Below, piece after piece: positions 6,651 to 60,549 of a stretch of 64,000 nucleotides of DNA (position 1 is the stretch's first letter; each line of letters opens with the position of its first letter). Position numbers and translations under genes: made by a program. The DNA comes from Roseibium sp. TrichSKD4 (GTDB taxonomy: Bacteria > Pseudomonadota > Alphaproteobacteria > Rhizobiales > Stappiaceae). The notes below the pieces were generated by a model that saw only the letters and a program-made list of their open reading frames with translations, did not search any database and was not told where the DNA came from. Location: positions 441,225 through 505,224 of the forward strand of contig NZ_GL476311.1 in the NCBI RefSeq assembly GCF_000148725.1, given 5' to 3'.

Positions 6651-6745
6651 TACAGAGACTTCTTTTTTGAACCGGGTTATGCCATTTGGAGCAGGTGTCG
6701 GTCGTTCGCACCGCCAAATGCGCATATTCTGGGGAGAGCCATAGT

Positions 6746-7531
6746 ATGACCAGCGCTGAACCGCAATTCCAGACTGTTGGATCAGGGGCGGCTGCGCGCC
6801 AGATCGCAGTGCGTTCAGAACATGCTGACACTGCCAAGACTGGGCTTTTCTGGCTCTCAGGTTTCAAGTCGGACATGTCCGGGTCCAAAGCTGTCGCTGT
6901 TGCCAATTGGGCGCGCGTGAAGGGGTATTCAGTTACACGGTTCGACTATTCCGGGCATGGAATGTCCGGTGGGGACTTTGAAGAAGCTTGCCTGTCGGAT
7001 TGGTTGGAAGAAACGCAGGCTGTGTTTGATGCCTGCTGTGGTGACAACACGATTGTGATCGGTTCTTCCATGGGAGGATGGCTGGCCATGCTCTTGGCAC
7101 TTGCCCGCAAAGACAGCCGCAAGATCAAAGGTCTGGTGTTGATCGCACCTGCTGCAGATTTCACCGAAGAGCTTATGTGGAAACACCGGTTTACCGATGA
7201 AATACGCAAGACAATCATGGAAACTGGGCGGTTTGAGCAACCTTCCGCTTATTCCGATGATCCTTATGTCATCACGCGAAAGCTGATTGAGGATGGACGC
7301 AACCACCTTATTTTGAACCGGTCCTTGCAGACGGGGTGCCCTGTGGCGATCCTGCAAGGAGCAAAGGATCCTGACGTGCCATGGCAGCATTCACAGCGAC
7401 TGGTCGAAGCCTTGCCGCTGGATAATGTGACCTTCACGATCGTACCAGATGGGGACCATCGGCTTTCCTGGCCAGAGGATATTGACCTGCTACTGTGCAC
7501 AATTGACCGAATGATTTCTCACAGACCCTAA
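6746..7531 (+). CDS. Alpha/beta hydrolase (serine carboxylesterase-like)
   Basis: A 261 aa alpha/beta-hydrolase-fold enzyme resembling the ABHD10/YqiA-like carboxylesterases. The nucleophile elbow is GSSMGGW (Ser near 112), the acid is likely Asp in QGAKDPDVP near 212, and the histidine is in DGDHRLS near 239. The oxyanion region GHGMSGG is near 70. GGGGAG at 6731-6736 precedes the ATG at 6746, which decides against an upstream in-frame start at 6686. The substrate is unknown. It is divergent from the glycosyltransferase, and its 3' end overlaps the convergent glycosylase gene by 4 bases. Confidence 0.85.
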   Translation: MTSAEPQFQTVGSGAAARQIAVRSEHADTAKTGLFWLSGFKSDMSGSKAVAVANWARVKGYSVTRFDYSGHGMSGGDFEEACLSDWLEETQAVFDACCGDNTIVIGSSMGGWLAMLLALARKDSRKIKGLVLIAPAADFTEELMWKHRFTDEIRKTIMETGRFEQPSAYSDDPYVITRKLIEDGRNHLILNRSLQTGCPVAILQGAKDPDVPWQHSQRLVEALPLDNVTFTIVPDGDHRLSWPEDIDLLLCTIDRMISHRP

Positions 7532-8169
7532 AGCGGCATTGTGGCCTTGCCATTTTTTTGGGTCTTGTACCAGGCCCACAAAACACGTGCGGCGACAGAG
7601 CGCCATGGCGCCCATTGGCTGGCCAGTGCATCCATTTCCTTCACACCTGGCCGGTCTGGCAGACCAAATGCATCGCGTGCTGCCGTTTGAAGGGCAAGGT
7701 CCCCGCCAGGAAAGATGTCAGGATGGCCCGCGCAAAAGAGCAGGAAAATGTCTGCAGTCCAGCGTCCAATCCCCTTGATGGCACACAGGCGCTTGTGCGC
7801 GTCTTCAGCGGGGGCGGCTGCTAGGGCCGCCAGATCGAGACCTCGACGACATTCTTCGGTTATGGCTCTGAGTGTGCGAATTTTTGGCATGGACAGGCCA
7901 GCCGATTTCAAGACCTCGTCGGGTGTGTTGTCGATTTCTTTTGCCGTCAGCGGAGACACGGCTGCTTCCAGTCGTTGAAAGATAGCGGCTGCCGCTGCAA
8001 CCGAGACAAGCTGTCCGGTGACAATCTGCGCCAATCCGGCAAAATCAGGCGGACGGCGACGTAGGGGGATGTTTCCCGCGCTTTCCATGACCGGCCTCAG
8101 TTTTGGATCCAGGCCCCGCAACTCGGCCATGGCAAAGGAAATGTCTTCAAGGCTGGAGATGATCTGCAT
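7528..8169 (-). CDS. DNA-3-methyladenine glycosylase II (AlkA family, HhH-GPD)
   Basis: Base-excision repair glycosylase of 213 aa that removes alkylated purines from DNA. The helix-hairpin-helix is LCAIKGIGRWTADIFL near residues 128-143 and the catalytic aspartate lies in the GPD-type loop PGGDLALQ near 155. The N-terminal AlkA TBP-like domain is absent, so this is the short form common in alphaproteobacteria. It is convergent with the hydrolase and divergent from gluQ, with 71 bp between their starts. Confidence 0.88.
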   Translation of the reverse strand: MQIISSLEDISFAMAELRGLDPKLRPVMESAGNIPLRRRPPDFAGLAQIVTGQLVSVAAAAAIFQRLEAAVSPLTAKEIDNTPDEVLKSAGLSMPKIRTLRAITEECRRGLDLAALAAAPAEDAHKRLCAIKGIGRWTADIFLLFCAGHPDIFPGGDLALQTAARDAFGLPDRPGVKEMDALASQWAPWRSVAARVLWAWYKTQKNGKATMPL

Positions 8170-8240
8170 GGGTTGATGTCTGGATCTCGACTGACGCCAA
8201 TTTCTTGCGCCTCAGGGTTTTCTTGCGTATCCGGTTTGGC

Positions 8241-9140
8241 ATGAGCACTCAGCCTTCCCCGATTTTTCGCTTTGCTCCGTCTCCTAACGGGCATCTGCAT
8301 TTGGGTCACGCCCTTTCTGCCCTATTGAACGCCAGAGCCGCAGAGCTGCTCGGAGGAAAAGCGCTCCTGCGCATCGAGAATATTGACCTCGCCCGCTGCA
8401 CTCCGGTTCTTGAACAGGAGATGCTTGAGGATCTTGAGTGGCTCGGATACCCGCTGGACACTCCCGTATTGCGCCAAAGTGAACGGTTTGAGGCCTATCA
8501 GACAGCGCTTGGCAAGCTGGAGGCGCTAGGGCTGGTCTATCGGGCCACCTTAACCCGGGCAGAGATCAAGCGTTTTGTTGAAGAACAAGAGGTGCTCGGT
8601 CAGAGGTGGCCGCGCGATCCGGATGGTGCACCACTCTATCCGGGTGACAGAATTGTTCTCAGTGAAGATGAGTTGAATGCCCGGTTGATTGGGGATGCAC
8701 CCTACGCCCTGCGTCTCAACATGAAAGCCGCACTGGAGCAGGTGAACCAGCCGCTAAGTTGGCAGGAGGCGGGACCGGAAGGACCTTCGCTAACCGAAAC
8801 GCCAACACCTATTGCCGCTTCTCCAGAGGACTGGGGTGACATTATTTTGACCCGCAAGGACACGCCCACCAGCTATCACCTGTCCGTCGTTGTGGATGAT
8901 GCAGCGCAAGGAATAACGGATGTTCTTCGTGGTACGGACCTTTATCAGGCAACGTCTGTCCATCGGCTGCTACAGGTTTTGTTGGATCTGCCAGAGCCAG
9001 TGTATCGCCATCATCGGCTAGTTTTGGATGAAGATGGGCAAAAGCTCTCCAAGTCGTCACAATCGACTAGTCTGCGCGCGCTACGCCATGCCGGGTGGAC
9101 GCGAGCTGCGGTTTTGGAGCGTATCGGTTTAGAACGGTGA
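8241..9140 (+). CDS. gluQ: Glutamyl-Q tRNA(Asp) synthetase
   Basis: A 299 aa truncated glutamyl-tRNA synthetase paralogue that attaches glutamate to queuosine at position 34 of tRNA(Asp). It keeps the class I signatures, HIGH as HLGH near residue 19 and KMSKS as KLSKS near 273, but lacks the anticodon-binding domain. The three zinc cysteines of the E. coli enzyme are absent: the region after LGLVYRATLTRAE has none. This fits the zinc-less alphaproteobacterial form. The ATG at 8241 was chosen because the catalytic core begins at IFRFAPSPNG. The substrate modification is made through the queCDEF pathway 4 kb downstream. Confidence 0.92.
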   Translation: MSTQPSPIFRFAPSPNGHLHLGHALSALLNARAAELLGGKALLRIENIDLARCTPVLEQEMLEDLEWLGYPLDTPVLRQSERFEAYQTALGKLEALGLVYRATLTRAEIKRFVEEQEVLGQRWPRDPDGAPLYPGDRIVLSEDELNARLIGDAPYALRLNMKAALEQVNQPLSWQEAGPEGPSLTETPTPIAASPEDWGDIILTRKDTPTSYHLSVVVDDAAQGITDVLRGTDLYQATSVHRLLQVLLDLPEPVYRHHRLVLDEDGQKLSKSSQSTSLRALRHAGWTRAAVLERIGLER

Positions 9141-9159
9141 GACTTTTGCTGTGGCACGC

Positions 9160-10128
9160 CTATAGCGCTGCGCGCCAGAGCTCCAGTGCATAGACCCACA
9201 GACCGCATGTCAGAACAGCTGCCGCCGTGGTGACTGTAATGGCATTGGTGGACATGGCGTGGCCGGTTCCGAATTTGTTGGCGAATATGAAAGCGTTGAC
9301 ACCTGTAGGACATGCGGCGGTCAACGTGGCAACACACGTCCAAAGTGGCGGCAACTGGATGACATAGGCACCAAGCACAAAGACGCTTGCCGGCATCACC
9401 AGCATTTTCACTACGCTCAAGCACAGACCGGGCACAAGATTGCCGCGCAGGCCGTAAAGCACCATGCTCATGCCAAGAGAGAGCAACGCAACGGGCAGAG
9501 CCGTTGCGGCGATCCGGTCAAGAACATCTGCAAAAATGCCTGTGACAGGGAGGCCAGACATTCGCCACAAGACCGAAGAAACGATGGCAATGGCGAGCGG
9601 ATTGGTGGCAAGGCTCTTGCCGATTGTCCGCAATTGGTCTTTGAGCTGGGCAGGGGAAGCATTGTTGTCTGTAGCTGCTGCACGCTCCATCAAGATGGCA
9701 GCAACAATCGTCATGATCGGTAAGTGAACTGAAATGATGACCAGGAGGGCCGCCAATCCGTCGTCACCATAGACCTGCGCGACCAGCGGAATGCCGACCA
9801 TAACCGTGTTGGCAAAGCCAGCTGAAATTCCGCCGATGACACCAGCGCGGGCCTCGCGGCCAAACCCTTTGCGAATGATCACTGTGCCGAGGGTCCAAGC
9901 AACCAGAATGCCGCTAAAATAAGTCGCCCAAAGCGCCCAGGGAGAATGTCCACCAAGGCTGACTCCAGACAGGGTTTTGAAGATCAGGACAGGAATGGCG
10001 ATGACATAAACATATTGCCCGAGCGCTTCGCCTGCTGATCTGGATAAAAGCTCGAAACGAGCCACTCCATACCCAATGCCAATAAGGATGAAGACAGGCA
10101 AGGTGATGGACAAAATGGCGTTCAGCAT
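9160..10128 (-). CDS. AEC family auxin-efflux-carrier-like transporter
   Basis: An inner-membrane carrier of 322 aa with about ten hydrophobic segments in two repeats, matching the bacterial AEC family (Mem_trans). The unwound-helix regions near GFANTVMVGIPL (about 105-116) and TAACPTGVNAFIFA (about 278-291) are typical of the fold. Members export malate, malonate or other organic anions, but the substrate cannot be inferred here. It stands alone between convergent gluQ and the divergent histidine kinase. Confidence 0.85.
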   Translation of the reverse strand: MLNAILSITLPVFILIGIGYGVARFELLSRSAGEALGQYVYVIAIPVLIFKTLSGVSLGGHSPWALWATYFSGILVAWTLGTVIIRKGFGREARAGVIGGISAGFANTVMVGIPLVAQVYGDDGLAALLVIISVHLPIMTIVAAILMERAAATDNNASPAQLKDQLRTIGKSLATNPLAIAIVSSVLWRMSGLPVTGIFADVLDRIAATALPVALLSLGMSMVLYGLRGNLVPGLCLSVVKMLVMPASVFVLGAYVIQLPPLWTCVATLTAACPTGVNAFIFANKFGTGHAMSTNAITVTTAAAVLTCGLWVYALELWRAAL

Positions 10129-15000: not shown

Positions 15001-15008
15001 GTTTTTGA

Positions 15009-15046
15009 CCCTTGTTTTGGCTAGAACCGGGTAGGCTGCGACCGGT
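15009..15046 (-). promoter_or_regulatory. Predicted preQ1-I riboswitch (translational)
   Basis: Read on the minus strand, 15046-15042 (ACCGG) pairs with 15030-15026 (CCGGU) to form P1. The loop between them is UCGCAGCCUAC and the 3' tail ends CAAAACAAGGG. The UCGCAG loop start and the AAAACAAGGG tail match the Thermoanaerobacter tengcongensis preQ1-I aptamer, in which the tail's AAGGG is both a pseudoknot strand and the Shine-Dalgarno. Here AAGGG sits 8 bases before the queC TTG. The match was recalled and aligned by eye, not by a covariance search. Confidence 0.8.
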
Positions 15047-15211
15047 TTCCGCTGGATGGCGGACGGAGGTTTTCTAAAGATCAGTCCTCAAAATGCAATT
15101 GAAATCTCTACTGACCGTCAGTTCTGACAATGCTTTGAACCAAACTGCTCTTGCCAATTCCGCCTTTCCCGCACTAACACAAGGCAAAACACTGGCTGCC
15201 GGGAGCATGTT

Positions 15212-15862
15212 CTGGAACTCATTGCTGAAAACCTGACCGTTGATCGGGGAGATCGACGTGTGTTCGAGGGATTGTCGTTTTCGCTGGAGGGCGGCGTGGC
15301 GCTTGTGGTGACCGGTCCAAACGGAGTGGGCAAGTCCTCGCTCCTGCGCACCTTGGCCGGGCTTGTTGCGTTGGCTGAAGGGCATTTGACTCTATCGGGC
15401 GGCGTTGATGACCACACGCCATATGAGCACGCGCATTATTTCGGCCATCAGGATGCAGTCAAACCGGCTTTGAGCGTTTTGGAAAATCTGGTGTTCTGGC
15501 AAGACTTTTCCGATGCTGCTGTTCCTCACGGTTTTGCTGGCGACGGTATGTCGCCTCATGAGGCGCTGGAATTGCTGGGCATCGGTCACACAGCCCGACT
15601 GCCTGCTGCCTACTTGTCTGCTGGGCAAAAACGCCGCCTCTCCTTGTCCCGCCTTTTGGTCACGCCTCGCCCGATCTGGTTGATGGATGAACCAACTTCG
15701 GCGCTTGATACGGCATCAGAGCAAACATTGCTTGATCTTATGAATGGTCACTTGGCGAAGGGCGGGATGATCGTGACAGCGACTCATACGCCACTGGCAC
15801 TCACCCCTATGCGCAAACTCCACTTGGAGACAGCGCAGGCTGGCGAGGGAGAGGCGGTATGA
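15212..15862 (+). CDS. ccmA: Heme exporter ATP-binding protein CcmA (CTG start)
   Basis: ATPase of the CcmABCD complex that releases holo-CcmE during cytochrome c maturation. Walker A GPNGVGKSS, signature LSAGQKRRL and Walker B IWLMDEPTSALD are present. The conserved N-terminus ELIAENLTVDRGDRRVF lies upstream of the first in-frame GTG (15260), and no ATG, GTG or TTG is in frame back to the TGA at 15125. The best start is CTG at 15212, with GGGAG at 15201-15205 six bases before it. A nearby ATG at 15207 is out of frame, so a one-base error is the alternative. The end overlaps ccmB by ATGA. Confidence 0.88.
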   Translation: MELIAENLTVDRGDRRVFEGLSFSLEGGVALVVTGPNGVGKSSLLRTLAGLVALAEGHLTLSGGVDDHTPYEHAHYFGHQDAVKPALSVLENLVFWQDFSDAAVPHGFAGDGMSPHEALELLGIGHTARLPAAYLSAGQKRRLSLSRLLVTPRPIWLMDEPTSALDTASEQTLLDLMNGHLAKGGMIVTATHTPLALTPMRKLHLETAQAGEGEAV

Positions 15863-16530
15863 CCGGTTGGGCCAAAGCGCTATTTCTGCGTGAGCTGCGC
15901 ATTGCCGTCCGGATCGGGGGGAGTGGTGTCGTTGGTGTTCTGTTTTTCCTTGCCGTGGTCACCGTTATTCCCTTTGGCGTTGGGCCAGACCTGAACCTCT
16001 TGGCGCGAATTGGACCTGCGTTTTTGTGGATCGGTGCTTTGCTCGCCACTCTTTTAGGGCTGGATCGACTGTTTCAGGCTGATCGGGAAGACGGCGCTCT
16101 GGATCTTATCTTAATGTCCGGGCGTTCACTGGAACTGGTTGTGCTGGTCAAGTGTTTGGCGCATTGGATGGCAACGGGCCTTCCCCTTGTTCTTGCAGCT
16201 CCCGTGCTTGCAATCTTCCTTAACCTTGAGCCACTTGCCATCGGCGCTGTGACATTGACGCTTCTTGTCGGCACACCAGCTTTGACGCTCATTGGGGCGA
16301 TTGGGGCATCCTTGACGGTAACATTGCGGCGCGGAGGTCTGCTCATGGCTGTTCTCGTCGTGCCGCTTGCCATCCCGGTTCTGATTTTCGGGGTCAGCTC
16401 GGCAGATGCGGCCATTCATGATCCGGTACCGTTTATGACGCCGTTTTTGATCATGTGCGCCTTGTCGCTGATTGCAGCTGTTGTGGGGCCATTGGCATCC
16501 GCAGTGGCCCTACGTTTTGCGGCTGATTAG
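15859..16530 (+). CDS. ccmB: Heme exporter membrane protein CcmB
   Basis: A 223 aa inner-membrane subunit of the CcmABCD complex, with about six hydrophobic helices beginning near residue 22. The start ATG overlaps the ccmA stop by 4 bases, implying translational coupling. The N-terminal amphipathic stretch WAKALFLRELRIAVRIG and the DGALDLILMSGRSL loop near 80-93 are typical of CcmB. A 147 bp gap then separates it from ccmC. Confidence 0.93.
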   Translation: MTGWAKALFLRELRIAVRIGGSGVVGVLFFLAVVTVIPFGVGPDLNLLARIGPAFLWIGALLATLLGLDRLFQADREDGALDLILMSGRSLELVVLVKCLAHWMATGLPLVLAAPVLAIFLNLEPLAIGAVTLTLLVGTPALTLIGAIGASLTVTLRRGGLLMAVLVVPLAIPVLIFGVSSADAAIHDPVPFMTPFLIMCALSLIAAVVGPLASAVALRFAAD

Positions 16531-16677
16531 GTTTTAAACCCTACGTTTCTTGGCGATCTATCGAAATCATCACGCGAAATTATTGCCTTGTGAATGCAAG
16601 ATCGGGTAGGCGCTCAGGTTAACGATGCGACGTTGATGTCCATTGAATGACATCCAAGCGTGGATTAGAACAATTCT

Positions 16678-17445
16678 ATGGCAATTTGGGACTACGCAAA
16701 TCCGACACGCTTCATGCGCCTGGCAGATCGCATTCTGCCGTGGCTCATTGGTATATGCGTGATCGCGTTCGCCATTGGGCTCTACAAGAGCTTTTTCATG
16801 GCACCGGAAGACTATCAGCAAGGGGACACAGTCCGGATCATGTTCATTCATGTTCCTGCGGCCTGGCTTGCTATGATGTGTTATTCGGTCATGGCACTTT
16901 CCTCAATTGGGACACTGGTTTGGAAGCATCCGTTGGCGGATGTCTCGGCCAAATGCGCGGCGCTAATTGGAGCTGCCTTCACCTTCATCTCGTTGGTGAC
17001 AGGATCGCTCTGGGGTAAGCCGATGTGGGGAACTTATTGGGTGTGGGATGCGCGCCTGACCTCCGTGTTGGTGCTGTTCATCATGTATTTGGGGCTCATG
17101 GCGCTCTGGCGGACCATGGAAGACCCGATCAAAGCAGGCAAAGCCGCGGCCGTTCTGACCCTTGTCGGGGCGTTGAACCTTCCGATCATCAAGTTCTCGG
17201 TTGACTGGTGGAACACCTTGCATCAGCCAGCCAGCGTCATGCGGCTGGATGGTCCGACCATTCATCCCGATATGCTGGTCCCGCTGCTTGTCATGGCGTT
17301 TGCGTTCAGCGTGCTCTTTTTCGTGCTCCATTTGCGGGCTATGCAAAATGAGGTGCTGCGCCGCCGCGTGCGGACCATGCGCCAGAAGGCGGCTGCAAGC
17401 GCGCGGCCAGCTGCTGCCACAGCAACCACCCAACCGGCGGAGTAA
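16678..17445 (+). CDS. ccmC: Heme-binding membrane protein CcmC
   Basis: A 255 aa inner-membrane protein with six TM helices that presents heme to CcmE. The WWD domain GKPMWGTYWVWDARLTS is near residues 113-129, and axial histidines lie in MFIHVPAAW near 58 and in the LHQPASV loop near 182. An Ala/Arg-rich tail of about 25 residues follows the last helix. It begins a tight run with ccmD (6 bp gap). Confidence 0.94.
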   Translation: MAIWDYANPTRFMRLADRILPWLIGICVIAFAIGLYKSFFMAPEDYQQGDTVRIMFIHVPAAWLAMMCYSVMALSSIGTLVWKHPLADVSAKCAALIGAAFTFISLVTGSLWGKPMWGTYWVWDARLTSVLVLFIMYLGLMALWRTMEDPIKAGKAAAVLTLVGALNLPIIKFSVDWWNTLHQPASVMRLDGPTIHPDMLVPLLVMAFAFSVLFFVLHLRAMQNEVLRRRVRTMRQKAAASARPAAATATTQPAE

Positions 17446-17451
17446 GCGGAC

Positions 17452-17634
17452 ATGGATCCTTTCGACCTCGGCCCCCACGCCGGTTTCATCATTGCCTGCT
17501 ATTTCATCACCATTTCTGTGGTTGCCGGACTGATTGCCTGGGTGGTTTTGGACCGCCGTCAGTTGAACAAGGCTCTGAATGAGCTGGAAGAGCAGGGCAT
17601 TAAGCGCGCCAGAGGCAATCAAGCACAGTCATGA
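17452..17634 (+). CDS. ccmD: Heme exporter protein CcmD
   Basis: A 60 aa single-span membrane protein (hydrophobic residues about 9-31) with a charged cytoplasmic helix ending LEEQGIKRARG. It stabilises CcmC-CcmE in the heme-release complex. It is placed between ccmC and ccmG as in other alphaproteobacteria; its stop overlaps the ccmG start by ATGA. Confidence 0.9.
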   Translation: MDPFDLGPHAGFIIACYFITISVVAGLIAWVVLDRRQLNKALNELEEQGIKRARGNQAQS

Positions 17635-18290
17635 GTGAGCAATCAGAGCAGAATCCGGCCGAGCAAGACCCTGCTGAGCAGCTGTCTTCCGCGTCCAAAC
17701 CGCAACGACGCCGGATCCCGATTCTGGTTCTGCTTCCGGTCATTATTTTTGCCGCTTTGGCTGCGCTGTTCCTGTTTCAGCTGACCATGGGCAATGATCC
17801 GAGCAAGATTCCGTCGGTTCTGATTGGGCGGCCTGCGCCTGATGCATCTCTTCCTGCTGTTGAGGGACTGGCACCTGAAGGTGTTCAGCTGGAGGGATTT
17901 TCCAAGGCTGACATGATCGGGAAAGTGTCCATCGTGAACGTCTTTGCATCCTGGTGTGGCCCTTGTCGTCGGGAACATCCTCTTCTCGAAGAGCTTGCAA
18001 AGCAGGATGGGTTCCAGATGATCGGGATCAACTACAAGGACAAGCCGGAAAACGCTCGCCGGTTTTTAGGCAGTCTCGGCAATCCCTACGACAGGGTTGG
18101 CTCTGATCCAAACGGCCGCGCCGCGATTGATTGGGGTGTTTACGGCATTCCTGAAACGTTCATTGTCGATGCGACGGGAACGATCCGCTACAAATATATC
18201 GGCCCGCTGAGCCCGACCAGCTATCGCGACGAATTTCTGCCGCAGCTTGAGGTCATCTTGCAGACACCAAACGGCCCGCAATCGAATTGA
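17631..18290 (+). CDS. ccmG: Thiol:disulfide interchange protein CcmG/DsbE
   Basis: A 219 aa membrane-anchored periplasmic thioredoxin that keeps apocytochrome cysteines reduced. It has an N-terminal charged leader of about 26 residues, a TM anchor near 28-46 and the active site ASWCGPCRREHP near 105-116. The cis-Pro lies in YGIPETFIVD. The genes ccmE, ccmF and ccmH are not in this window, so the maturation system is split between loci. Confidence 0.93.
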   Translation: MSEQSEQNPAEQDPAEQLSSASKPQRRRIPILVLLPVIIFAALAALFLFQLTMGNDPSKIPSVLIGRPAPDASLPAVEGLAPEGVQLEGFSKADMIGKVSIVNVFASWCGPCRREHPLLEELAKQDGFQMIGINYKDKPENARRFLGSLGNPYDRVGSDPNGRAAIDWGVYGIPETFIVDATGTIRYKYIGPLSPTSYRDEFLPQLEVILQTPNGPQSN

Positions 18291-18396
18291 ATTGCAATCA
18301 CAAACAGGTGTGATTGGCTTCCGTCACCTCCTCGTTACTCGCACTTGAAGGGGCAGTTGCCTATGTTCTTCGCAGATTGATGCGGAACATAGAGCC

Positions 18397-19173
18397 ATGA
18401 CCTTGAGATATGCGACACTTCGAAATCTGCTTTTTGCCGGGGTATGCGCTGCGGCAACGTTTGGTAGCCCGCTGATGACATCGTCTGCCTCTGGCACTGA
18501 GCCTCGCGTCGTGGCTGAGCTTTTCACCAGCCAAGGGTGTTCGTCCTGCCCGCCTGCTGACCGTTTGCTGCACGATTTGGCGAAAGACAGTTCCATTTTG
18601 CCGCTGACTATGGCGGTCGACTATTGGGATTACCTCGGTTGGCCGGACACGCTGGCCAGCAGTGCACATTCGGATCGCCAGCGTTCCTATGCGGTCAAAC
18701 GGGGTGACCGATCCGTTTATACACCTCAATTGGTGGTCAATGGTCTGAGCCACGTTGTTGGCAGCCGCCGAAACGATGTGGTTCAGGCGTTGAAAACAGC
18801 TCCGGCCTTCACCGCGAAGGTTGCCATGAGCCGGTCCGACATGGCGCTTGAGGTCATCATTGACGGCGCGCTTCCATCGGGTGCGGACAAGGCCAATGTC
18901 TATTTTCTTCGCGTGAGTTCTGCCGAAGAGGTGGAGATCCGCCGCGGTGAAAATGCTGGCCGGACCATCACCTATCGAAACGTCGTTCGGAGCCTGCAGC
19001 CGATAGGCGTTTGGACCGGGGAGCCTGCCAAGATCCGCTTGCCGAAATCGGAAATGCGCAAGGGCGCAAATGACAAATGCGCGATCCTTGTACAGGTCGA
19101 TACTGACGATGGTCCCGGCGAAATTATCGGGGCAAACATCATGAATCTGCAGATGGCTTCAGCCGCCCAATAG
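18397..19173 (+). CDS. DUF1223 thioredoxin-like secreted protein
   Basis: A 258 aa protein with a signal peptide (residues 1 to about 32, ASG end) and a DUF1223 domain of thioredoxin-like fold. ELFTSQGCSSCPPAD carries Cys48 and Cys51, and YWDYLGWPD and RSVYTPQLVVNG are family signatures. The family's role is unknown; the exported CxxC and adjacency to the ccm genes suggest redox or metal handling, which is inference only. It stands 106 bp after ccmG and may be a separate unit. Confidence 0.85.
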   Translation: MTLRYATLRNLLFAGVCAAATFGSPLMTSSASGTEPRVVAELFTSQGCSSCPPADRLLHDLAKDSSILPLTMAVDYWDYLGWPDTLASSAHSDRQRSYAVKRGDRSVYTPQLVVNGLSHVVGSRRNDVVQALKTAPAFTAKVAMSRSDMALEVIIDGALPSGADKANVYFLRVSSAEEVEIRRGENAGRTITYRNVVRSLQPIGVWTGEPAKIRLPKSEMRKGANDKCAILVQVDTDDGPGEIIGANIMNLQMASAAQ

Positions 19174-27678: not shown

Positions 27679-28220
27679 GTGGCTCTCTCCCGTTTCAAGT
27701 GATTGTTTACCCGATAAGATGGGCGTTTGGCAGGATATGTCGAGTGGGGCAGCAGGTGAAGCGCCGCAAGGAGGGCCTCCGGCGTTTTGGCTGCTGTCCC
27801 CTTGAAAACCCAAGGGAGTGGCAAGACGCGAAGGCGTTGCCCGCGCGTTGCAAAAAACAATGTTCGGCTCGGCCTTCACGCCTTGCCCGGGTTGTTTCTC
27901 ATGGTGTCCCGACCCGATCCATTGAACAGACATTTGGGTTTTCTTCAAAACCCCCGCAACATGCCCTTCATGGCCGCGTTCTCCCCGCGGGTCTGCGGTT
28001 CCCGCGATCAACACCACCGGACCTGACAGAAGAGCTTCGTTACCTCTCTTCCCCAGCCCCACCCGGCCTGCCCCGCCTCAAAGGTCGGTCCTTCAAGGGC
28101 CCTTGCGAGCAGGCACACGCTCTATATGGGATCAAATTCCTATCTGCGCATAAGTTTTTTGAAGGCGCAAAAAGGTGAGTGTTTTCAAGGAGAGGGGGGT
28201 GCGGGGTGGAGGATAAGGTG
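27679..28220. other. 542 bp without a recognisable gene
   Basis: Between phhB and the AT-rich pair I find no convincing coding sequence. It holds several GC-rich open frames, none with a good ribosome site, and an inverted-repeat-like GGCGTTGCCC/CGCCTTGCCC neighbourhood around 27830-27890 that could be an intergenic repeat element. Composition shifts from GC-rich to AT-rich near 28.2 kb, so the left edge of an insertion probably lies here. Confidence 0.5.
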
Positions 28221-28349
28221 ATGAGAAGTTGCAAAACAACGATGCCGGCTTTGGAATACGAAAGTCAGATAAACGAATTGATTGAATTTAATAAAACTGC
28301 AATTTACAGAAGGTGTATTGTGTATGGTAAATTTAGGCGTTGGTCATGA
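28221..28349 (+). CDS. 42-residue ORF coupled to the nuclease-like gene
   Basis: A small ORF starting ATG at 28221 with a strong Shine-Dalgarno GGAGG at 28208-28212, 8 bases upstream, and ending TGA at 28347-28349 inside the ATGA that starts the next gene. The peptide begins MRSCKTTMPALEYESQ, has an acidic helix-like middle and a basic, aromatic tail ending KFRRWS. It shares the AT-rich composition of the downstream gene. No homology is recognised. It may be a partner protein or a translational leader for the larger product. Confidence 0.6.
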   Translation: MRSCKTTMPALEYESQINELIEFNKTAIYRRCIVYGKFRRWS

Positions 28350-30289
28350 AGAGATATAAAAGTTATATAGATAAAAGTGATATTTTCACTAAAATAAAAA
28401 ACAGGGAAATTCATCACCCTACTAATTCAGTATTTGATCCAGAGTTGTTGGCGAAAGTAGTTTTGGAAAATCCAGACCTATCTATTCGTGATTCATGCCT
28501 TTTTCAGTTGGCTTTGGTGGTTTTTTCAGAGCTCAAGGTTGCTCGTGAAAAGTTAAGTGTTATTCAAAAGTCTCTTGCTTTGGCGGATGCCGTTGATTTC
28601 AGTCTAGCGTTAGTAAATTTCCAGTGTGTAAATGTCATTAAGGATTGCGAAAAGCAACTCAGATTATTGCCTAAAGACAAACCAATTGATTTGGCGAAAT
28701 TTAATGATGCTCATGTCCGAAATATTGGAGGCCAAGTTGTAAATATCGATGAAGCTGCTGAAGGGCTTGCCGATAATTTGCCGCAATTGGTTTTTCATTT
28801 AGCGTCTAATTGTCAAGCAAAAGACATGTGCGGTCGCGATCAAGTGCTTGCACAGTCTCGGTATATTCAAGCCTACGCTTCTATTGAGAAAGCGTTGTCC
28901 GAGATATGGAATATGGGATTGTGGGAGGGGTACTCATTAGGGGCTGATGGAAATCAGTTCATTCTTAAGCCTTGTGATGTTGATTTTACTGCGCAATGGG
29001 ATATTTGGCGGAAAAGAGATCAGTTGGTTTTAATGAGTAATCGCAATTTGGATTACGGGGACGCGGTCGCGGACGACGCTGAGGTTCCGTCGCCTCCAAT
29101 TCTAGCGAAGACAGTGATCAGGATAGATCAAAAATCAGGAAAGAAAGCAGAGTATCGGTTAGGACGGCCGGTGTCGTCTAGAGAGCATGTCGATTTTGTA
29201 AGTTATTTAGAATCTAGCTACCTTTCGGTTTTTCTCGATGAACCCCTTAATCTTCAAGGTGGCAAGTTGACATTTATGGACCTTGTAAAAGCTTTTTTGA
29301 TTGTACGCGATTTCACTAAGCTGAAGTCAAAAGCAATCGGAGGGGAGTTTAGTAGTTGGGTAGATGTTAGGCGAAATCTTATTTGTTTAGATGTTCAAAG
29401 ACATAAAAATATATTTTGTATTTGCCTTAATATTAGTAGATCCGAATCAGAGACTTTAATTAATATATTGAGCTCTGATATTGTCAAGGGAGATGATTTA
29501 TTTGCGAAAAATATTTGGGGTGCTCCATTAATAAAAATCGGCAGCGACTCTTTGTTACGAATTGCACTTCCGTCTGTAATAAATCCCAATCCAGTCTATG
29601 TTTTTGAAAATTGGCTCAGAGTTACAAACGCGATTGATAAGAAAGGGAAGTCAAAGGGGCGGACGTTTGAGGCCTTTGTTAAGGAAATGGCAAAAGATCT
29701 GGGTTCAAAAAACCGCCATTTTAGTGACTTTTCTGTATTCGATACATCCCAGAAAGACGGGGAGGAAATTGATTTAGTGATTGCTGTTGGCAATTTGATA
29801 ATTGTTTGTGAGGTTAAATGCTTTGTGGGGCCATATAGTTCTCAAGAAAAATATAATAGAAATAGAAAGCTCGTTGAAGCTACTGAGCAGGTTGAAAGAA
29901 AAAGAATTTGGCTTAAAAAAAATATTTCAAAATATACTGATTTCGAAAACGATCAAAATTTAAAGTTTTACTCGTTGGTGGTGCTCAATGACGCGTTCGG
30001 TTGCGGCCAGATGGCAGGTCACACGACCATTGTAGATTTGAATTGGTTTAAAACCGTTCTTTCTTCAAATGCGGTTGTGACGCAGGGAAGGTATGAAAGG
30101 CAGCTTGGAAAGTCGTTTTCCACGGTCGAAATATATGGAAGTTGTGAAGATTTTGAACAAAGGGTAGGTGAAATTATGGCAGAACCTCCTATGCTCAAAA
30201 TGATTAAAAAAGAAATTCGGTCATTAGATCGAAAGTTCCCATTGAGCTATGGCGGGAATTTAATTATCCGCCAACCGGTTGTGTCATGA
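28346..30289 (+). CDS. Unknown protein with PD-(D/E)xK nuclease-like C-terminus
   Basis: A 647 aa protein I do not recognise by name. The N-terminal 430 residues resemble nothing familiar, apart from two helical regions. The C-terminal part looks like an Mrr/NERD-type restriction endonuclease fold: GRTFEAFVKEM with a Glu near 443, then GEEIDLVIAVGN with Asp near 475, EVKC with Glu 489 and Lys 491, and a helix with Gln (EATEQVERKR) near 514. These would be the E, D, ExK and Q positions of the active site. The gene is clearly richer in A and T than its neighbours, suggesting recent transfer. It starts in the ATGA overlap with the 42-residue ORF. A defence or DNA-processing role is inference. 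Confidence 0.75.
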   Translation: MKRYKSYIDKSDIFTKIKNREIHHPTNSVFDPELLAKVVLENPDLSIRDSCLFQLALVVFSELKVAREKLSVIQKSLALADAVDFSLALVNFQCVNVIKDCEKQLRLLPKDKPIDLAKFNDAHVRNIGGQVVNIDEAAEGLADNLPQLVFHLASNCQAKDMCGRDQVLAQSRYIQAYASIEKALSEIWNMGLWEGYSLGADGNQFILKPCDVDFTAQWDIWRKRDQLVLMSNRNLDYGDAVADDAEVPSPPILAKTVIRIDQKSGKKAEYRLGRPVSSREHVDFVSYLESSYLSVFLDEPLNLQGGKLTFMDLVKAFLIVRDFTKLKSKAIGGEFSSWVDVRRNLICLDVQRHKNIFCICLNISRSESETLINILSSDIVKGDDLFAKNIWGAPLIKIGSDSLLRIALPSVINPNPVYVFENWLRVTNAIDKKGKSKGRTFEAFVKEMAKDLGSKNRHFSDFSVFDTSQKDGEEIDLVIAVGNLIIVCEVKCFVGPYSSQEKYNRNRKLVEATEQVERKRIWLKKNISKYTDFENDQNLKFYSLVVLNDAFGCGQMAGHTTIVDLNWFKTVLSSNAVVTQGRYERQLGKSFSTVEIYGSCEDFEQRVGEIMAEPPMLKMIKKEIRSLDRKFPLSYGGNLIIRQPVVS

Positions 30290-30377: not shown

Positions 30378-33053
30378 TCACCCTGCCACGAGGTTTCTCA
30401 GCACGTAGTGCAGGATGCCGCCGGCTTTGATGTATTCCAGTTCGTCTTCAGTATCGACGCGGCAGAGGCATTCGATGGTTTTGGTTGAGCCGTCCGCATA
30501 GGTGACTTCAACATTCATTATCTGGCGTGGCTGGATGTCGGCGATGCCCTTGATGGTGACGCGTTCGGTGCCCTCAATGCCATGGGACTGCCAGCTTTCG
30601 CCATCCTTGAAGGTGAGCGGGATGACGCCCATGCCGACGAGGTTAGAGCGGTGGATGCGTTCAAAGGACTGGGCGATGACGGCGCGCACGCCCAAGAGCT
30701 TCGTGCCCTTGGCTGCCCAGTCACGCGAGGAACCGGTGCCGTATTCCTTGCCGGCAAAGACGACCAGCGGCGTGCCTTCGGCCTGATATTCCATGCAGGC
30801 ATCAAAAATCCACTTTTTCTCGCCGTCCTTCATGGTGACGCCGCCTTCCACGCCCGGAACCATCTGGTTCTTGATGCGGATATTGGCGAAGGTGCCGCGC
30901 ATCATGACCTGGTGGTTGCCGCGCCGTGCGCCATAGGAGTTGAAGTCCTTTTGCACCACCTGATGTTCGGCAAGATAGGTGCCTGCCGGGCTGTCGGCCT
31001 TGATGTTGCCTGCCGGGGAAATGTGGTCGGTGGTGATCGAGTCCAGAAACAGGCCCATGACCGCCGCATTTTCAATGTCCGTGAGCGGCGTCGGCTCCAT
31101 GGTCATGCCCTCGAAATAGGGCGGGTTCTGGACGTAAGTTGACGAGACCGGCCAATTGTAGGTCAGGCCACCTTCGACCTTGATCTGTTGCCATTTTTCA
31201 TCGCCCTTGAAGACGTCGCCATAACGGGTGCGGAACATCTCTTCGGTGATGGAGGAGCGAATGAGGCTGGTGATCTCGTCCGCCGTTGGCCAGATGTCTT
31301 TCAGATAAACCGGATTGCCGTCGTTGTCCGTACCAAGCGCATCTTCGGTGATGTTGATGTTGAGGTTTCCGGCGAGCGCATAGGCGACCACCAGCGGCGG
31401 AGAGGCGAGGTAGTTGGCGCGCACATCCGGGTTGACGCGACCTTCAAAGTTCCGGTTGCCGGAAAGAACCGAGCAGGCGATCAGGTCATTGTCGTTAATC
31501 GCCTTGGAAATGGCGGGGTCCAGCGGGCCGGAATTGCCGATACAGGTGGTGCAGCCATAGCCTGCCAGCGTGAAGCCCAGCGCGTCGAGATCATCCTGAA
31601 CGCCTGCCTTTTCCAGATAGTCGGTGACGACCTGCGAGCCGGGGGCCAGTGAGGTTTTGACCCATGGCTTGACCGAAAGCCCCTTAGCCAGCGCGTTTCT
31701 GGCCAAAAGACCGGCACCGATCAGAACCGACGGGTTGGAGGTGTTGGTGCAGGAGGTGATGGCAGCAATCACCACATCGCCATTGCCGAGATCATGCTCC
31801 TTACCCTCAACGGAAACCCGCTTGGCAAGTTCCCCCGCCTTCTTGAACTCGGTTTCCATGGTCTTGGCAAAACCGGTCGCTGCCTCCGCCAGGTCGATGC
31901 GGTCTTGCGGGCGTTTCGGGCCGGAAATGGACGGAACGACCGTGGAAATGTCGAGTTCCAGAGTGTCGGTGAACTCCGGCTCTTCATTGCCTGAGCGGTA
32001 CATGCCCTGTGCCTTGGCATAGGCTTCCACAAGAGCGACGCGGTCCTTGTCGCGGCCAGTGGCGTCCAGATATTTTAAGGTGTCGCTATCAACGGGGAAG
32101 AAGCCGCAGGTCGCGCCATATTCAGGGGCCATGTTGGCGATGGTGGCTTCATCTTCCAGGCTGAGATTGTCGAGGCCGGGGCCGTAAAACTCAACAAATT
32201 TGCCGACCACACCCTTTTGGCGCAGCATTTCAACAACGCGCAGCACAAGGTCGGTGGCGGTGATGCCTTCGTTCAGCTTGCCGGTTAGCCTGAAGCCGAT
32301 GACCTCGGGGATGAGCATGGATATCGGTTGGCCGAGCATGGCCGCTTCCGCCTCAATGCCGCCAACACCCCAGCCGAGAACCGCAAGGCCATTGACCATG
32401 GTTGTGTGGCTGTCGGTGCCAACCAGCGTGTCCAGATAGGCAATGGTTTCGCCGTTTTCTTCTTTCGTCCAGACCGTTTGGGCGAGATATTCCAGATTGA
32501 CCTGATGGCAAATGCCCGTTCCGGGAGGAACAGCGCTGAAATTGTCAAAGGCTGACTGGCCCCAGCGCAAGAACTCATAACGCTCCTGATTGCGCTCATA
32601 TTCCTTGTCGACGTTCTTCTTGAATGCGTCCTGCGTACCGAAATAGTCGATCATCACCGAGTGGTCGATGACGAGGTCAACGGGCACCTGCGGGTTTACC
32701 TTCTTCGGATCGCCGCCGAGTTTAACCGCCGCATCGCGCATGGCAGCCAGATCAACTACTGCCGGAACGCCGGTGAAATCCTGCATCAAGACGCGGGCCG
32801 GGCGATAGGCGATCTCGTGGGTGGAGGTTTTTGTCTTCAGCCACGCGGCACAGGCGATGATGTCGTCCTTCGTGACCGTCCGCCCGTCTTCAAAGCGCAG
32901 AAGGTTTTCCAGCACCACTTTCAGGGATGTGGGAAGTTTGGATACGCCCTCAAGGCCGTTCTTCTCAGCTTCGGGAATGGAAAAATAGGTGTAGCTCTTG
33001 TCCCCAACGGTGAGGGTTTGTTTGCAGTTGAAGCTGTTAAGAGACTGGGTCAC
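30378..33053 (-). CDS. acnA: Aconitate hydratase A
   Basis: An 891 aa [4Fe-4S] enzyme that interconverts citrate and isocitrate in the TCA cycle; the A type also acts as an iron-responsive RNA-binding protein in some bacteria. Cluster cysteines lie in AAITSCTNTSNPSV near 437 and YGCTTCIGNSG near 503, and the substrate serine is in GTGSSRDWAAKG near 785. The probable start is GTG at 33053, with GAGGAG about 10 bases upstream. A second aconitase, acnB, lies 3.4 kb away on the other strand. Confidence 0.94.
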   Translation of the reverse strand: MTQSLNSFNCKQTLTVGDKSYTYFSIPEAEKNGLEGVSKLPTSLKVVLENLLRFEDGRTVTKDDIIACAAWLKTKTSTHEIAYRPARVLMQDFTGVPAVVDLAAMRDAAVKLGGDPKKVNPQVPVDLVIDHSVMIDYFGTQDAFKKNVDKEYERNQERYEFLRWGQSAFDNFSAVPPGTGICHQVNLEYLAQTVWTKEENGETIAYLDTLVGTDSHTTMVNGLAVLGWGVGGIEAEAAMLGQPISMLIPEVIGFRLTGKLNEGITATDLVLRVVEMLRQKGVVGKFVEFYGPGLDNLSLEDEATIANMAPEYGATCGFFPVDSDTLKYLDATGRDKDRVALVEAYAKAQGMYRSGNEEPEFTDTLELDISTVVPSISGPKRPQDRIDLAEAATGFAKTMETEFKKAGELAKRVSVEGKEHDLGNGDVVIAAITSCTNTSNPSVLIGAGLLARNALAKGLSVKPWVKTSLAPGSQVVTDYLEKAGVQDDLDALGFTLAGYGCTTCIGNSGPLDPAISKAINDNDLIACSVLSGNRNFEGRVNPDVRANYLASPPLVVAYALAGNLNINITEDALGTDNDGNPVYLKDIWPTADEITSLIRSSITEEMFRTRYGDVFKGDEKWQQIKVEGGLTYNWPVSSTYVQNPPYFEGMTMEPTPLTDIENAAVMGLFLDSITTDHISPAGNIKADSPAGTYLAEHQVVQKDFNSYGARRGNHQVMMRGTFANIRIKNQMVPGVEGGVTMKDGEKKWIFDACMEYQAEGTPLVVFAGKEYGTGSSRDWAAKGTKLLGVRAVIAQSFERIHRSNLVGMGVIPLTFKDGESWQSHGIEGTERVTIKGIADIQPRQIMNVEVTYADGSTKTIECLCRVDTEDELEYIKAGGILHYVLRNLVAG

Positions 33054-33337
33054 GGCGCGTGATCTCCTCAAGGTTCCTTGGTTGCCGGGTGTGAAGGGCG
33101 CCGGCTGCCTGGGTCATCAAAAAATCTCTGGGTGCACCGTGTGGTTTGGTGCTGAAAACCGGCCCGCTGACGGAGCTTACATCCATATGGGTTGTCTGTT
33201 GCCATGCGCCAGTGGTGCGTGGCAAATCACGGAGCGTTTATCCGCTTATGTCATAGCGAATTTGGCCCGCAATCTCCAGCAGGTGACGCAGAGAGTTGCT
33301 AACCGGCAACGCAGTCAATGGATGGTGTTGGAAGCCC

Positions 33338-48688: not shown

Positions 48689-49648
48689 ATGCTGATTGGA
48701 GCTGACGTGCACCAGACTTCCCCAAAAGGGGCTCATCAGCGTGACCGACTTGCTGAACTGCGCCGCCGCATTGCGGATCTTGAGGGTCGCCTCCCCTTGG
48801 ATGCACAGTTGGCCCCGGCCCCTGTTTCTGCCGCCGCAAAACAGGGGCCGGCCTCTTTGGGAGACGGGCAAGGGATACCGGACGGGACACGAGATCATGT
48901 GCCTCTAAGGCTGCGCCTTGATCTGCCGGTTTTGGACGCGGTGTTTCAGAGGGAAGGTCTGCGTCTGGACAGCCTCCATGAGGTGGTGGGCCGTGAAAGC
49001 CGGGATTGTGGGGCCGTGTCCGGGTTTGCCCTTGCGCTTCTGGCCCGGGTGATGCGGGCCCGCTCCGGGGCCGTGCTTTGGGTTTCGAGCCCGCAAGCGG
49101 GCCGCGAAAACGGGCGGCTTTACGGTCCGGGATTGCAGCAGTTTGGTATTGATCCGGCACGTCTGATTGTCGTGTTTCCCCGCCGTATGGAAGAGCTTTT
49201 GTGGGGGCTGGAAGAAGGGGCGAGGTGCTCTGGCCTGTGCGCTGTTTTTGGCGAGGTGCAGGGCGTCAGTCGTGCGCTTGATCTGACGGCCACCCGCCGG
49301 CTTTTGCTGCGGGCACAAACAAGCCGGGTGCCGGTGATCTTGATGCGCAACGGTGTTGCCGATGAACCGACAGCGGCCCTGACGCGATGGTGTGTGACAC
49401 CGCACACCTCAAGGCCGCCTGATCTGGAGCACCGGGGACCGCATGAGGCGGTTGGACGCTCTGGCTGGAGAGTAACGTTGACACGCAACCGGGATGGTCG
49501 TCCGGGCAATGCATGTGTGGAATGGAACCATGAGACGGGACAATTTGATGCGCCAGCGCGTTCTCTCGCTCTGGTTTCCGGATCTGCCGGTGGACAGGAT
49601 CTTGCGCCGGTTGAACGCGGCCGCACCGCACAAGGCTGGGGACGTTGA
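48689..49648 (+). CDS. imuA: Mutasome protein ImuA
   Basis: A 319 aa RecA-like protein of the ImuA (SulA2) family that joins ImuB and DnaE2 in SOS translesion synthesis. It has DLPVLDAVFQREGLRLDSLH, LWVSSPQAG and FGEVQGVSRALDLTATRRLLLR, but no Walker A. The annotated start is ATG 48689, very close to the LexA box; a downstream start is possible. Its end overlaps imuB by about 100 bases. Confidence 0.88.
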   Translation: MLIGADVHQTSPKGAHQRDRLAELRRRIADLEGRLPLDAQLAPAPVSAAAKQGPASLGDGQGIPDGTRDHVPLRLRLDLPVLDAVFQREGLRLDSLHEVVGRESRDCGAVSGFALALLARVMRARSGAVLWVSSPQAGRENGRLYGPGLQQFGIDPARLIVVFPRRMEELLWGLEEGARCSGLCAVFGEVQGVSRALDLTATRRLLLRAQTSRVPVILMRNGVADEPTAALTRWCVTPHTSRPPDLEHRGPHEAVGRSGWRVTLTRNRDGRPGNACVEWNHETGQFDAPARSLALVSGSAGGQDLAPVERGRTAQGWGR

Positions 49649-51203
49649 GCCGCCCTTTGCCGTTGCCAGCCGAACAGGCAATGTCCATCGGCTTGTTTCG
49701 CTCAACCGAACGGCGCGTGCACTTGGCCTGAAGCGGCAAGACAATCTGGCGGATGCCAGAGCACGTGTCCCGCACCTTCTTGTCGAAGATGTCGCACCTT
49801 CCCAAGACGCCGCCCTGTTGGAGCGTCTGGCAGACTGGTGTGACCGGTATACGCCGCTCGTGGCGCTTGACGGGACAGATGGTCTGCTTCTGGACATTAC
49901 CGGCTGCGCACATCTGTTTGACGGGGAAGAGGCTCTTCTGGTTGATGCGCTTAGCCGTTTGAAACAGCAGGGTTTTGTCGTTCAAGGCGCTGTGGCCGAC
50001 ACTCCGGTTGCCGCGTTTGCCGTCGCTCGTTTTGGAGAGGGGCGCTGCGTGGCAAGTGGCGCGGAACGTGCAGCCCTTTCTCCTTTGCCGATTGAGGCGC
50101 TGCGGGTGGACGTGGATGTGGTGCGGGCCTTAAACCGGGTCGGTCTGCCGACAATCGGAGCGCTTTTGGATCGGCCGCGTGCACCTCTTGCCAATCGATT
50201 TGGTCTGGAGTTGGTGCGCCGTCTTGATCTGGCGCTGGGTCATGAAAAGGAACCGATTTCCCCGCGTTTTGCAGCCCCTCTTGTGGTGGCCGAGCGGCGG
50301 TTTTTTGAACCTATCGGGCTTGTGGAAGATGTCGAGGCTGTTGTCTTTTCTCTGGCCGGTCAGGTGCGAGAGGCGTTGGAACGACGCTGCGAAGGGGGGC
50401 GAGCCTTTGAGCTGGCTCTGTTTCGTGTCGATGGGGCGGTGCAACGTGTCGTGGTGGGCACCAGTCGCCCTTTAAGGGATGCCAAACGGATCAAGGCGTT
50501 GTTTGCCGAAAAACTGAAGGTGGATGAAAGCGTTCTGGATGCCGGATATGGCTATGACCTGATCCGGCTGGCTGTGGTGGAGGCGCAGGAAGCAACCGGG
50601 CAACAACTGGTTTTGAGTGAAGAGGGCGCTGCGCAGGCGGACGCTGATCTAAGCGGCCTGATTGACCGGCTTGGCGCGCGGCTTGGCCTCGACAGGATTA
50701 CCCGGCTTTTGCCGATGGATCGTCATTTGCCCGAACGACAGACAGAGTTCGTACCTGCTGCGCTGGTGCGCGAGGATGCGGTGTCCTGGGTCGGATTTGG
50801 CGGGGCTGATTTCGGGTTGGGCAGATCAGAACATGAGACGTCTCCTTCGCTTGAAGCAGCTTGGCAGGAATTGCCTTTAGAGCTTCCGCTTGAACGGCCT
50901 TTGCGGCTCATTGATCCGGCGGAGCCTGTCGACGCGGTGGCGATGGTGCCGGATGGTCCGCCCTTGCGGTTTCGCTGGCGGCGGGTTCTTTACAAAGTGG
51001 TCCGCTCAGAAGGGCCAGAGCGGATTGCTCCGCCGTGGTGGGCTGGAAACATCGACGCGGATGTGAGCGGGGAACGCGCGACCACGCGCGACTATTTCCG
51101 CATTGAAGACGAGGATGGCCGCCGCTTCTGGCTGTATCGCGAGGGCCTTTATGCTCGCGAGACAACGACCCCGCGCTGGTATTTGCAAGGGGTGTTTGCA
51201 TGA
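49548..51203 (+). CDS. imuB: Y-family polymerase-like ImuB
   Basis: A 551 aa Y-family polymerase-like protein lacking the polymerase catalytic carboxylates, serving as a hub for DnaE2 and the beta clamp. QRVLSLWFPDLPVDRILRR starts the domain, DGTDGLLLDITGCAHLFDGE is near 100-120, and the C-terminus RWYLQGVFA is typical. Starts at ATG 49548 (GGGA upstream) or 49530 are both possible. The stop overlaps the dnaE2 start by 4 bases. Confidence 0.9.
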   Translation: MRQRVLSLWFPDLPVDRILRRLNAAAPHKAGDVEPPFAVASRTGNVHRLVSLNRTARALGLKRQDNLADARARVPHLLVEDVAPSQDAALLERLADWCDRYTPLVALDGTDGLLLDITGCAHLFDGEEALLVDALSRLKQQGFVVQGAVADTPVAAFAVARFGEGRCVASGAERAALSPLPIEALRVDVDVVRALNRVGLPTIGALLDRPRAPLANRFGLELVRRLDLALGHEKEPISPRFAAPLVVAERRFFEPIGLVEDVEAVVFSLAGQVREALERRCEGGRAFELALFRVDGAVQRVVVGTSRPLRDAKRIKALFAEKLKVDESVLDAGYGYDLIRLAVVEAQEATGQQLVLSEEGAAQADADLSGLIDRLGARLGLDRITRLLPMDRHLPERQTEFVPAALVREDAVSWVGFGGADFGLGRSEHETSPSLEAAWQELPLELPLERPLRLIDPAEPVDAVAMVPDGPPLRFRWRRVLYKVVRSEGPERIAPPWWAGNIDADVSGERATTRDYFRIEDEDGRRFWLYREGLYARETTTPRWYLQGVFA

Positions 51204-60474: not shown

Positions 60475-60549
60475 TGGAGCGGGCGATGGGATTCGAACCC
60501 ACGACCCCAACCTTGGCAAGGTTGTGCTCTACCCCTGAGCTACACCCGC
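60475..60549 (-). tRNA. tRNA-Gly(GCC)
   Basis: Minus strand, 75 nt with encoded CCA. The acceptor GCGGGTG pairs with CGCCCGC (one G-U), the discriminator is U, the D arm is GCTCAGGGGTAGAGC, the anticodon loop is TTGCCAA on a CAACC/GGTTG stem, and the T arm has GTTCGAATC. Anticodon GCC. Confidence 0.97.

Follow-up and report, generated by a model that had tools for sequence, protein, structure and literature searches.

Within a 64,000-nucleotide stretch of the genome of Roseibium sp. TrichSKD4 (contig NZ_GL476311.1, positions 441,225 to 505,224; hereafter the window), a 647-codon open reading frame (ORF) on the forward strand, overlapped at its start by a 42-codon ORF, stands out by its AT-rich composition. 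The longer ORF is intact, and its product ends in a domain predicted to be a PD-(D/E)xK nuclease whose putative active site is conserved in a small group of proteobacterial relatives. An initial annotation, made from the letters of this DNA alone, described the two ORFs as a two-gene cassette; its coordinates, the GGAGG sequence 8 bases before the first ATG, the ATGA overlap and the lengths of 42 and 647 codons all hold. The features of the locus are as follows.

28346..30289, forward strand: 647-codon nuclease ORF, with an unrecognised N-terminal region (residues ~1-420), a predicted PD-(D/E)xK domain (~437-564) and a beta-rich C-terminal extension (565-647)
28208..28212, forward strand: GGAGG, a strong Shine-Dalgarno-like site 8 bases 5' of the ATG of the 42-codon ORF, within a G-rich tract
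28221..28349, forward strand: 42-codon ORF whose TGA overlaps the nuclease ATG (ATGA); probably a translated leader or a chance ORF, not a conserved partner
29654..29986, forward strand: match to the NERD family, residues 437-547 (28.9 bits, cut-off 22.1)
29669..29671, forward strand: codon of E442, identical in 10 of 10 aligned rows, the window included
29771..29773, forward strand: codon of D476, identical in 10 of 10 rows
29810..29818, forward strand: E489-V-K491, the ExK motif (all 10 rows have E; 8 have K, and loci L044 and L045 have R)
29888..29890, forward strand: codon of Q515, within the long helix that follows the ExK motif, identical in 10 of 10 rows

The G+C content of the nuclease ORF is 0.390, and 0.359 at third codon positions (GC3), which makes it the most AT-rich of 50 long ORFs in the window that for the most part do not overlap (itself included; mean G+C 0.559, standard deviation 0.034; mean GC3 0.602, standard deviation 0.070). 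It lies 5 standard deviations under the mean, the next lowest value being 0.507, and the observation of AT-rich coding DNA made in the initial annotation is thereby confirmed. The G+C content drops from about 0.6 to about 0.39 between positions 28000 and 28350 and climbs back past about 30300. The second-lowest value belongs to a 202-codon ORF at 57258-57866 (GC3 0.426), which has no Pfam match, overlaps an ORF on the opposite strand and may be spurious.

The C-terminal nuclease domain

The assignment of the C-terminal domain is based on family matches, structural models and residue conservation. The NERD match of residues 437-547 is above chance, whereas a match of residues 432-491 to DUF4143 (expect value, E, 0.0012) falls under the Pfam cut-off of that family. 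An AlphaFold model of residues 408-647, with a mean predicted local distance difference test score (pLDDT) of 78.8 and a predicted template modelling score of 0.74, shows a helix, three strands, a long helix and a strand (helices H and strands E of the model: H28-48, E55-58, E70-74, E77-84, H92-122, E133-140), which is the alpha-beta-beta-beta-alpha-beta core of the PD-(D/E)xK superfamily; the structure prediction that the initial annotation had proposed as a check thus returned the expected fold. The model of the whole protein, built from four sequences only, is poor overall (mean pLDDT 52.9), but 11 of the 14 ten-residue blocks of residues 441-580 score at least 70. Among viral models, Foldseek gave one match under E 0.001 (5.2e-4), named PD-(D/E)XK nuclease. 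Against solved structures, the best 50 of 502 Foldseek matches are mostly what we take to be PD-(D/E)xK enzymes (BspD6I subunits, McrC, VC1899, Can2, Cdn1, Hjc, XisH). A profile of ten aligned rows, comprising the window protein and nine relatives, matches the nuclease part of 8bao, a DUF1887 protein, with E 2.9e-4, the D and the ExK motif being aligned.

The E, D, ExK and Q residues noticed in the initial annotation correspond to E442, D476, E489-x-K491 and Q515, that is, to the residues characteristic of PD-(D/E)xK enzymes. All but K491, which is kept in eight rows, are invariant, as are W423, N456, K519 and D564. Pairwise identity averages 22% over residues 1-420, 33% over 421-560 and 24% over 561-647, so that the active site (K491 excepted) is conserved despite the low identity of the segment in which it lies. 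Taken together, sequence and model indicate that the C-terminal domain is probably a DNA- or RNA-cutting enzyme of the PD-(D/E)xK type.

The N-terminal region and the catalogues

The N-terminal 420-430 residues match no catalogued family, in keeping with the initial annotation, which did not recognise the first 430. The region is mostly helical in a low-confidence model, and a reading of its fold was dropped owing to the poor quality of that model. A frameshifted N-terminal extension was likewise ruled out: a conserved HP motif lies at residues 18-27 in six of the nine relatives and at residue 24 in the window protein, and is found deeper just in those relatives whose mechanically chosen start is long.

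When scanned against NCBIfam the window protein has no match, and against PHROGs a single one (E 0.2); its PADLOC matches to MkoA and PDC-S27, considered below, fall in the nuclease segment. No Pfam or PADLOC model spans any of the ten rows end to end, and family members are annotated as hypothetical in named plasmid and Escherichia coli records. Among the open-licence papers searched, no title or abstract start names the nuclease family, and four accession numbers of members led to no paper. Detection tools based on Pfam, PADLOC, NCBIfam or PHROGs would probably miss the family, and with it the member in the annotated defence island of E. coli.

Distribution and phylogeny of the family

Judged by their sequences, the relatives form a rare, patchy and unnamed family in Alpha- and Gammaproteobacteria. 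Among 72,556 plasmid records, tblastn detected the family over nearly its full length on two plasmids of Rhizobium and in part on one of Alteromonas. Two nuclease peptide patterns, run over the species genomes, hit 178 times and uncovered three relatives (Rhizobium, Martelella, Sphingomonas). Of 385 genomes drawn from the class to which the Rhizobium genome belongs, 1 had a strong match, namely the Rhizobium genome; strong matches were also found in 2 of 394 from its family (both known already), 3 of 347 from the family of the Sphingomonas genome (two new), 2 of 249 from the phylum (one new, G1355) and 1 of 258 from the class of G1355 (G1355 itself). At E 0.001 the two family draws rise to 5 of 394 and 5 of 347, the rest being partial. 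Weak partial matches, present in 3 (of 394), 2 (of 347) and 2 (of 249) genomes, one genome being counted twice, were excluded from the family; of three such proteins (L037-L039), one passes the DUF234 cut-off, one falls below it and one has no match. The copy on a Klebsiella plasmid recurs with 99.8-100% identity in 3 of 5426 E. coli genomes.

The alignment omits, as duplicates, the copies from E. coli and from the second of the Rhizobium plasmids. Identity to the window protein is 23-25% for the alphaproteobacterial and 14-17% for the gammaproteobacterial relatives, and the ORFs are 647-690 residues long once mechanical starts are reset to a later ATG (L004, from 733 to 679; L036, from 768 to 661). 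The tree separates seven alphaproteobacterial from three gammaproteobacterial rows with support of 100/99; the window protein is on the alphaproteobacterial side, on a long branch (2.47 changes per column) whose exact placement is not fixed. A viral origin was considered and rejected, as none of the 11, 86, 32 and 84 pattern matches obtained in four scans of viral contigs proved to be a relative, and tblastn of three members against 50,697 phage records revealed no relative either.

The 42-codon ORF

The initial annotation took the small ORF for the partner of the nuclease and was reminded of a toxin-antitoxin system. The ribosome-binding site of this ORF is indeed strong: Shine-Dalgarno pairing amounts to -9.3 kcal/mol, versus -2.8 at the nuclease ATG, and is stronger than at 18 of 19 sampled gene starts; a pairing of -8 is reached at 1.5% of 1000 random window positions and at 3.3% of 300 positions taken from the nuclease gene itself. 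In-frame upstream starts would lengthen the ORF to 43, 47 or 56 codons, and among 20,000 random first-order sequences 6.9% have no stop over 42 codons of a chosen frame. The G+C contents at its first, second and third codon positions (0.26, 0.43 and 0.36) are not coding-like, and with the codon use of the host as well as with that of the nuclease gene, both other forward frames score higher than its own. RNA structure at both starts does not exceed that of shuffled sequences.

In the nine independent relatives, over 1 kb of upstream DNA and 400 bases more, same-strand likeness to the 42-residue peptide extends over at most 5 residues (L004), the best match of all being one of 31 residues on the opposite strand (L006, E 0.024). 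The peptide has no match to plasmids at E 1 and none in Pfam, PADLOC, NCBIfam or PHROGs. Conservation at the protein level, named in the initial annotation as a point on which its reading could fail, is therefore not found. As the peptide is neither kept nor coding-like, the two-gene cassette and the toxin-antitoxin idea were rejected.

Short ORFs that are unrelated in sequence, have a fair ribosome site and end on or just before a plausible start do occur in two of the nine relatives, namely a 25-codon ORF in L044 (TGATG overlap, pairing -8.4) and a 115-codon ORF in L001, which stops one base before the ATG (pairing -6.9); L036 has a 103-codon ORF close to less likely starts (pairing -7.2), and the other six have none. 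For this comparison every in-frame start before the HP motif was considered, with an ORF within 30 bases and a pairing of -6 or stronger, since the mechanically longest starts lie too far upstream in L004, L035 and L036. In view of L044 and L001, the coupling may recur; the partner protein does not. The small ORF is probably a translated leader loading ribosomes for the overlapping ATG, or else a chance ORF, rather than an antitoxin or a conserved partner. The leader is favoured because of the strong site of the small ORF as opposed to the weak one of the nuclease ATG and because of the coupled ORFs in two relatives; as the strong site lies in a G-rich tract, it may also be fortuitous. That the small ORF is a gene is far less well supported than the nuclease assignment.

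Genomic surroundings of the relatives

The surroundings were compared at nine independent loci besides the window (near-identical copies counted once), without control neighbourhoods. Six of them look mobile or defence-linked, one weakly, and three do not. In E. coli and Klebsiella the gene belongs to a defence island with CbtA/YeeU, RadC, antirestriction and SIR2 genes downstream. The upstream side of this island differs: E. coli (L046, family member at 15001-17034) has type I restriction genes there and the Klebsiella plasmid (L045, 6837-8870) a gene for a phosphorothioated-DNA endonuclease, the downstream side being common. In Martelella a tRNA-Leu gene (6047-6133), an integrase gene (6386-7591) and the family gene (7983-10010) follow one another in a stretch in which the G+C content falls from about 0.60 to about 0.50. 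The Rhizobium plasmids have group II introns; on the Alteromonas plasmid (L003) AbiEii lies about 450 bases downstream of the family gene, and in Sphingomonas (L006) a Schlafen AlbA_2 protein and an IS110 transposase are encoded nearby. The weak link is that of G816 (L036), where tRNA-Ser lies 2.4-2.7 kb upstream and an IrrE-like protein is encoded 3.4 kb downstream. Of ten neighbours submitted to PADLOC, three matched (AbiEii in L003; in L006 a subtilase and the Schlafen-like protein, the latter to a pAgo model) and seven did not. In some relatives the family gene has a G+C content well under that of its locus. The position of members on plasmids, in islands and near anti-virus genes suggests a link of the family with defence and mobile elements. 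Ordinary, GC-rich contexts of homologues were named in the initial annotation as speaking against its reading; the outcome is mixed, since several relatives occupy plasmids, an integrase island or a defence island and some lie in ordinary or GC-rich surroundings.

The insertion site in the window

In the window the AT-rich insert lies between a gene named phhB in the initial annotation and a gene presumably for aconitase (acnA in the initial annotation); of 289 alphaproteobacterial genomes drawn, 247 have aconitase-type genes that match its product. In all seven alphaproteobacterial loci fetched, aconitase lies between homologues of the window genes at 15260-18290, which we take to be cytochrome c maturation genes, and at 18397-19173. 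In the window these genes are adjacent (15260-19173), and aconitase (30378-33065) is found about 11 kb away, beside the insert; it is rearranged relative to the seven loci, and the right edge of the insert therefore falls at a rearranged gene. As possible insertion scars, just weak (74-76% over 25-27 bases) or short flanking repeats were found, and the sole tRNA gene of the window is at 60475-60549. A clean empty site was not demonstrated, because the nearest aconitases found in draws of 289 and 40 genomes are just 73-74% identical and because aconitase itself is rearranged. The DNA of the insert region shows no likeness to plasmid DNA, and scans for promoters and terminators gave sites no more numerous than in shuffled sequences. 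Elsewhere in the window, at 49494-54607, an impB/mucB-type polymerase gene (PF00817) overlaps by 4 bases the gene after it, which is of the DNA polymerase III alpha type; the pair is presumably an imuB-dnaE2 mutasome cassette.

Proposed role and alternatives

We infer that the AT-rich block is a single, horizontally acquired gene of foreign-looking composition, whose product would be a nuclease with an N-terminal sensor, acting alone against phages or plasmids, and give this joint reading a probability of about one half. The N-terminal region of about 420 residues would sense invasion or bind the target nucleic acid, restraining the C-terminal nuclease and then releasing it; the nuclease, presumed to be metal-dependent and to act through E442, D476, E489, K491 and Q515, would then cut the nucleic acid of the invader or of the host. 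Ribosomes would load at the 42-codon leader (28221) and restart at the overlapping ATG, so that synthesis of the nuclease would be limited or coupled. The initial annotation was thus right in what it observed and is partly supported in its interpretation, the nuclease being upheld and the two-gene reading not; the conserved unit is one gene.

Several observations weigh against the defence reading. The 10 window genes scanned and the aconitase gene are housekeeping or unmatched, and the surroundings are ordinary or unclear in three of the nine loci (L004, L035, L044), with neighbours such as a dehydrogenase and regulators in Rhizobium L004, a permease, an oxidoreductase and unknowns in G951, and a phytochrome kinase and a pyocin-like gene 1.5 kb off in G1355. 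In L006 and L035 the G+C content of the family gene is not lower than that of its locus, and the link to defence islands, as read from these nine loci, is suggestive only. As to the protein, no Foldseek match to a solved structure reaches E 0.001 (best 7.4e-3, template modelling scores 0.32/0.40), and 42 of the 44 ten-residue blocks of residues 1-440 are below pLDDT 60 in the full model. K491 is replaced by arginine in L044 (7089-9161) and L045; E, D and Q are kept there, and these two members may be impaired. The NERD cut-off is passed by the window protein alone, the best of the nine relatives reaching 14 bits, and the family as a whole is therefore NERD-like only. The PADLOC matches are weak, both those of the window protein to MkoA (E 0.001), PDC-S27 (E 0.003) and HEC-06 (E 0.026, 30 residues) and those to CARF4-PDDEXK, which concern two of the nine relatives, both gammaproteobacterial rows.

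A broader proposal, put forward tentatively, is that of an uncatalogued proteobacterial family of single-protein defence systems, combining a new large N-terminal sensor with a NERD/DUF1887-like nuclease, spread by plasmids and integrative elements and, in Roseibium, metered in its synthesis by the leader. Single-gene nuclease effectors with an unrecognised sensing region are a source of new triggers of bacterial immunity.

It is possible, if rather doubtful, that the protein is instead a DNA-processing nuclease of mobile elements, carried as cargo for plasmid or integrative-element maintenance, repair or recombination and having no immune role. Several relatives are situated on plasmids or beside an integrase, and the domain itself was reportedly introduced as DNA-processing-related in the title of Grynberg and Godzik 2004; the annotated neighbours, however, share no single replication or transfer module, and the enterobacterial island is dense in defence genes.

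An effector of the Can2 kind, in which a nucleotide messenger bound by the N-terminal region would switch the nuclease on, is improbable. The profile match to a DUF1887 protein, the Foldseek matches to VC1899, Can2 and Cdn1 and the weak CARF4-PDDEXK matches agree with it, but the profile match is confined to the nuclease segment, the low-confidence model of the N-terminal region consists mostly of helices, the Pfam scans of the window protein and its nine relatives contain no CARF family, and the annotated neighbourhoods list no CRISPR or cyclase gene. We likewise consider it unlikely that the ORF is a foreign gene in passage, decaying or neutral after the loss of selection in its host, as its long branch, its AT-richness and the adjoining rearranged gene might suggest, given that all 647 codons are open and the five catalytic residues intact. 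A toxin-antitoxin pair, with the 42-residue protein as antitoxin of the nuclease, is very improbable: its strong ribosome site, the ATGA overlap and the other toxin-antitoxin genes near some relatives are outweighed by a peptide that lacks same-strand likeness of more than 5 residues upstream of all nine relatives, coding character and plasmid matches.

Relation to known systems

The NERD domain (PF08378) is given as a component of Mokosh type I and of Nhi-like systems, both defensive (PMC10952713), and PglW carries it at the N terminus, followed by kinase domains (PMC4365076). The window protein is similar to these proteins in that its segment 437-547 exceeds the NERD cut-off, and differs from them in that this segment is C-terminal, behind 420 unrecognised residues, and in that its nine relatives stay below the cut-off; unlike PglW of the Pgl/BREX systems, it also has no kinase match. 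Mokosh type I and Nhi-like systems presumably require a helicase domain together with NERD, whereas the window protein, scanned against Pfam, has no helicase match at E 1. The resemblance of its nuclease segment to PADLOC models PDC-S27 and MkoA involves about 90-105 residues at one extremity of these models, which comprise 474 and 1607 positions, respectively, and none of the nine relatives matches either model at E 0.1.

Can2/DUF1887 proteins, which join CARF to a PD-(D/E)xK nuclease, belong to type III CRISPR. Can2 itself is described as a CARF-nuclease fusion with DNase and RNase activity, activated by cA4 (PMC7969007). The likeness extends to the nuclease part, as seen in the match to 8bao and in the Foldseek matches, and to the order of the parts, with the putative regulator first and the nuclease last; in contrast to Can2, the N-terminal region of the window protein is longer, mostly helical (in the low-confidence model) and has no CARF match in Pfam. 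Shedu (SduA) is encoded by one gene and consists of a variable N-terminal region and a C-terminal PD-(D/E)xK nuclease, an organisation which the window protein shares, although none of the ten rows matches SduA/DUF4263 in Pfam or PADLOC; a distant kinship by fold may still exist. A regulatory region joined to a PD-(D/E)xK nuclease in one chain is an architecture already known in kind, of which the family described here is an uncatalogued representative.

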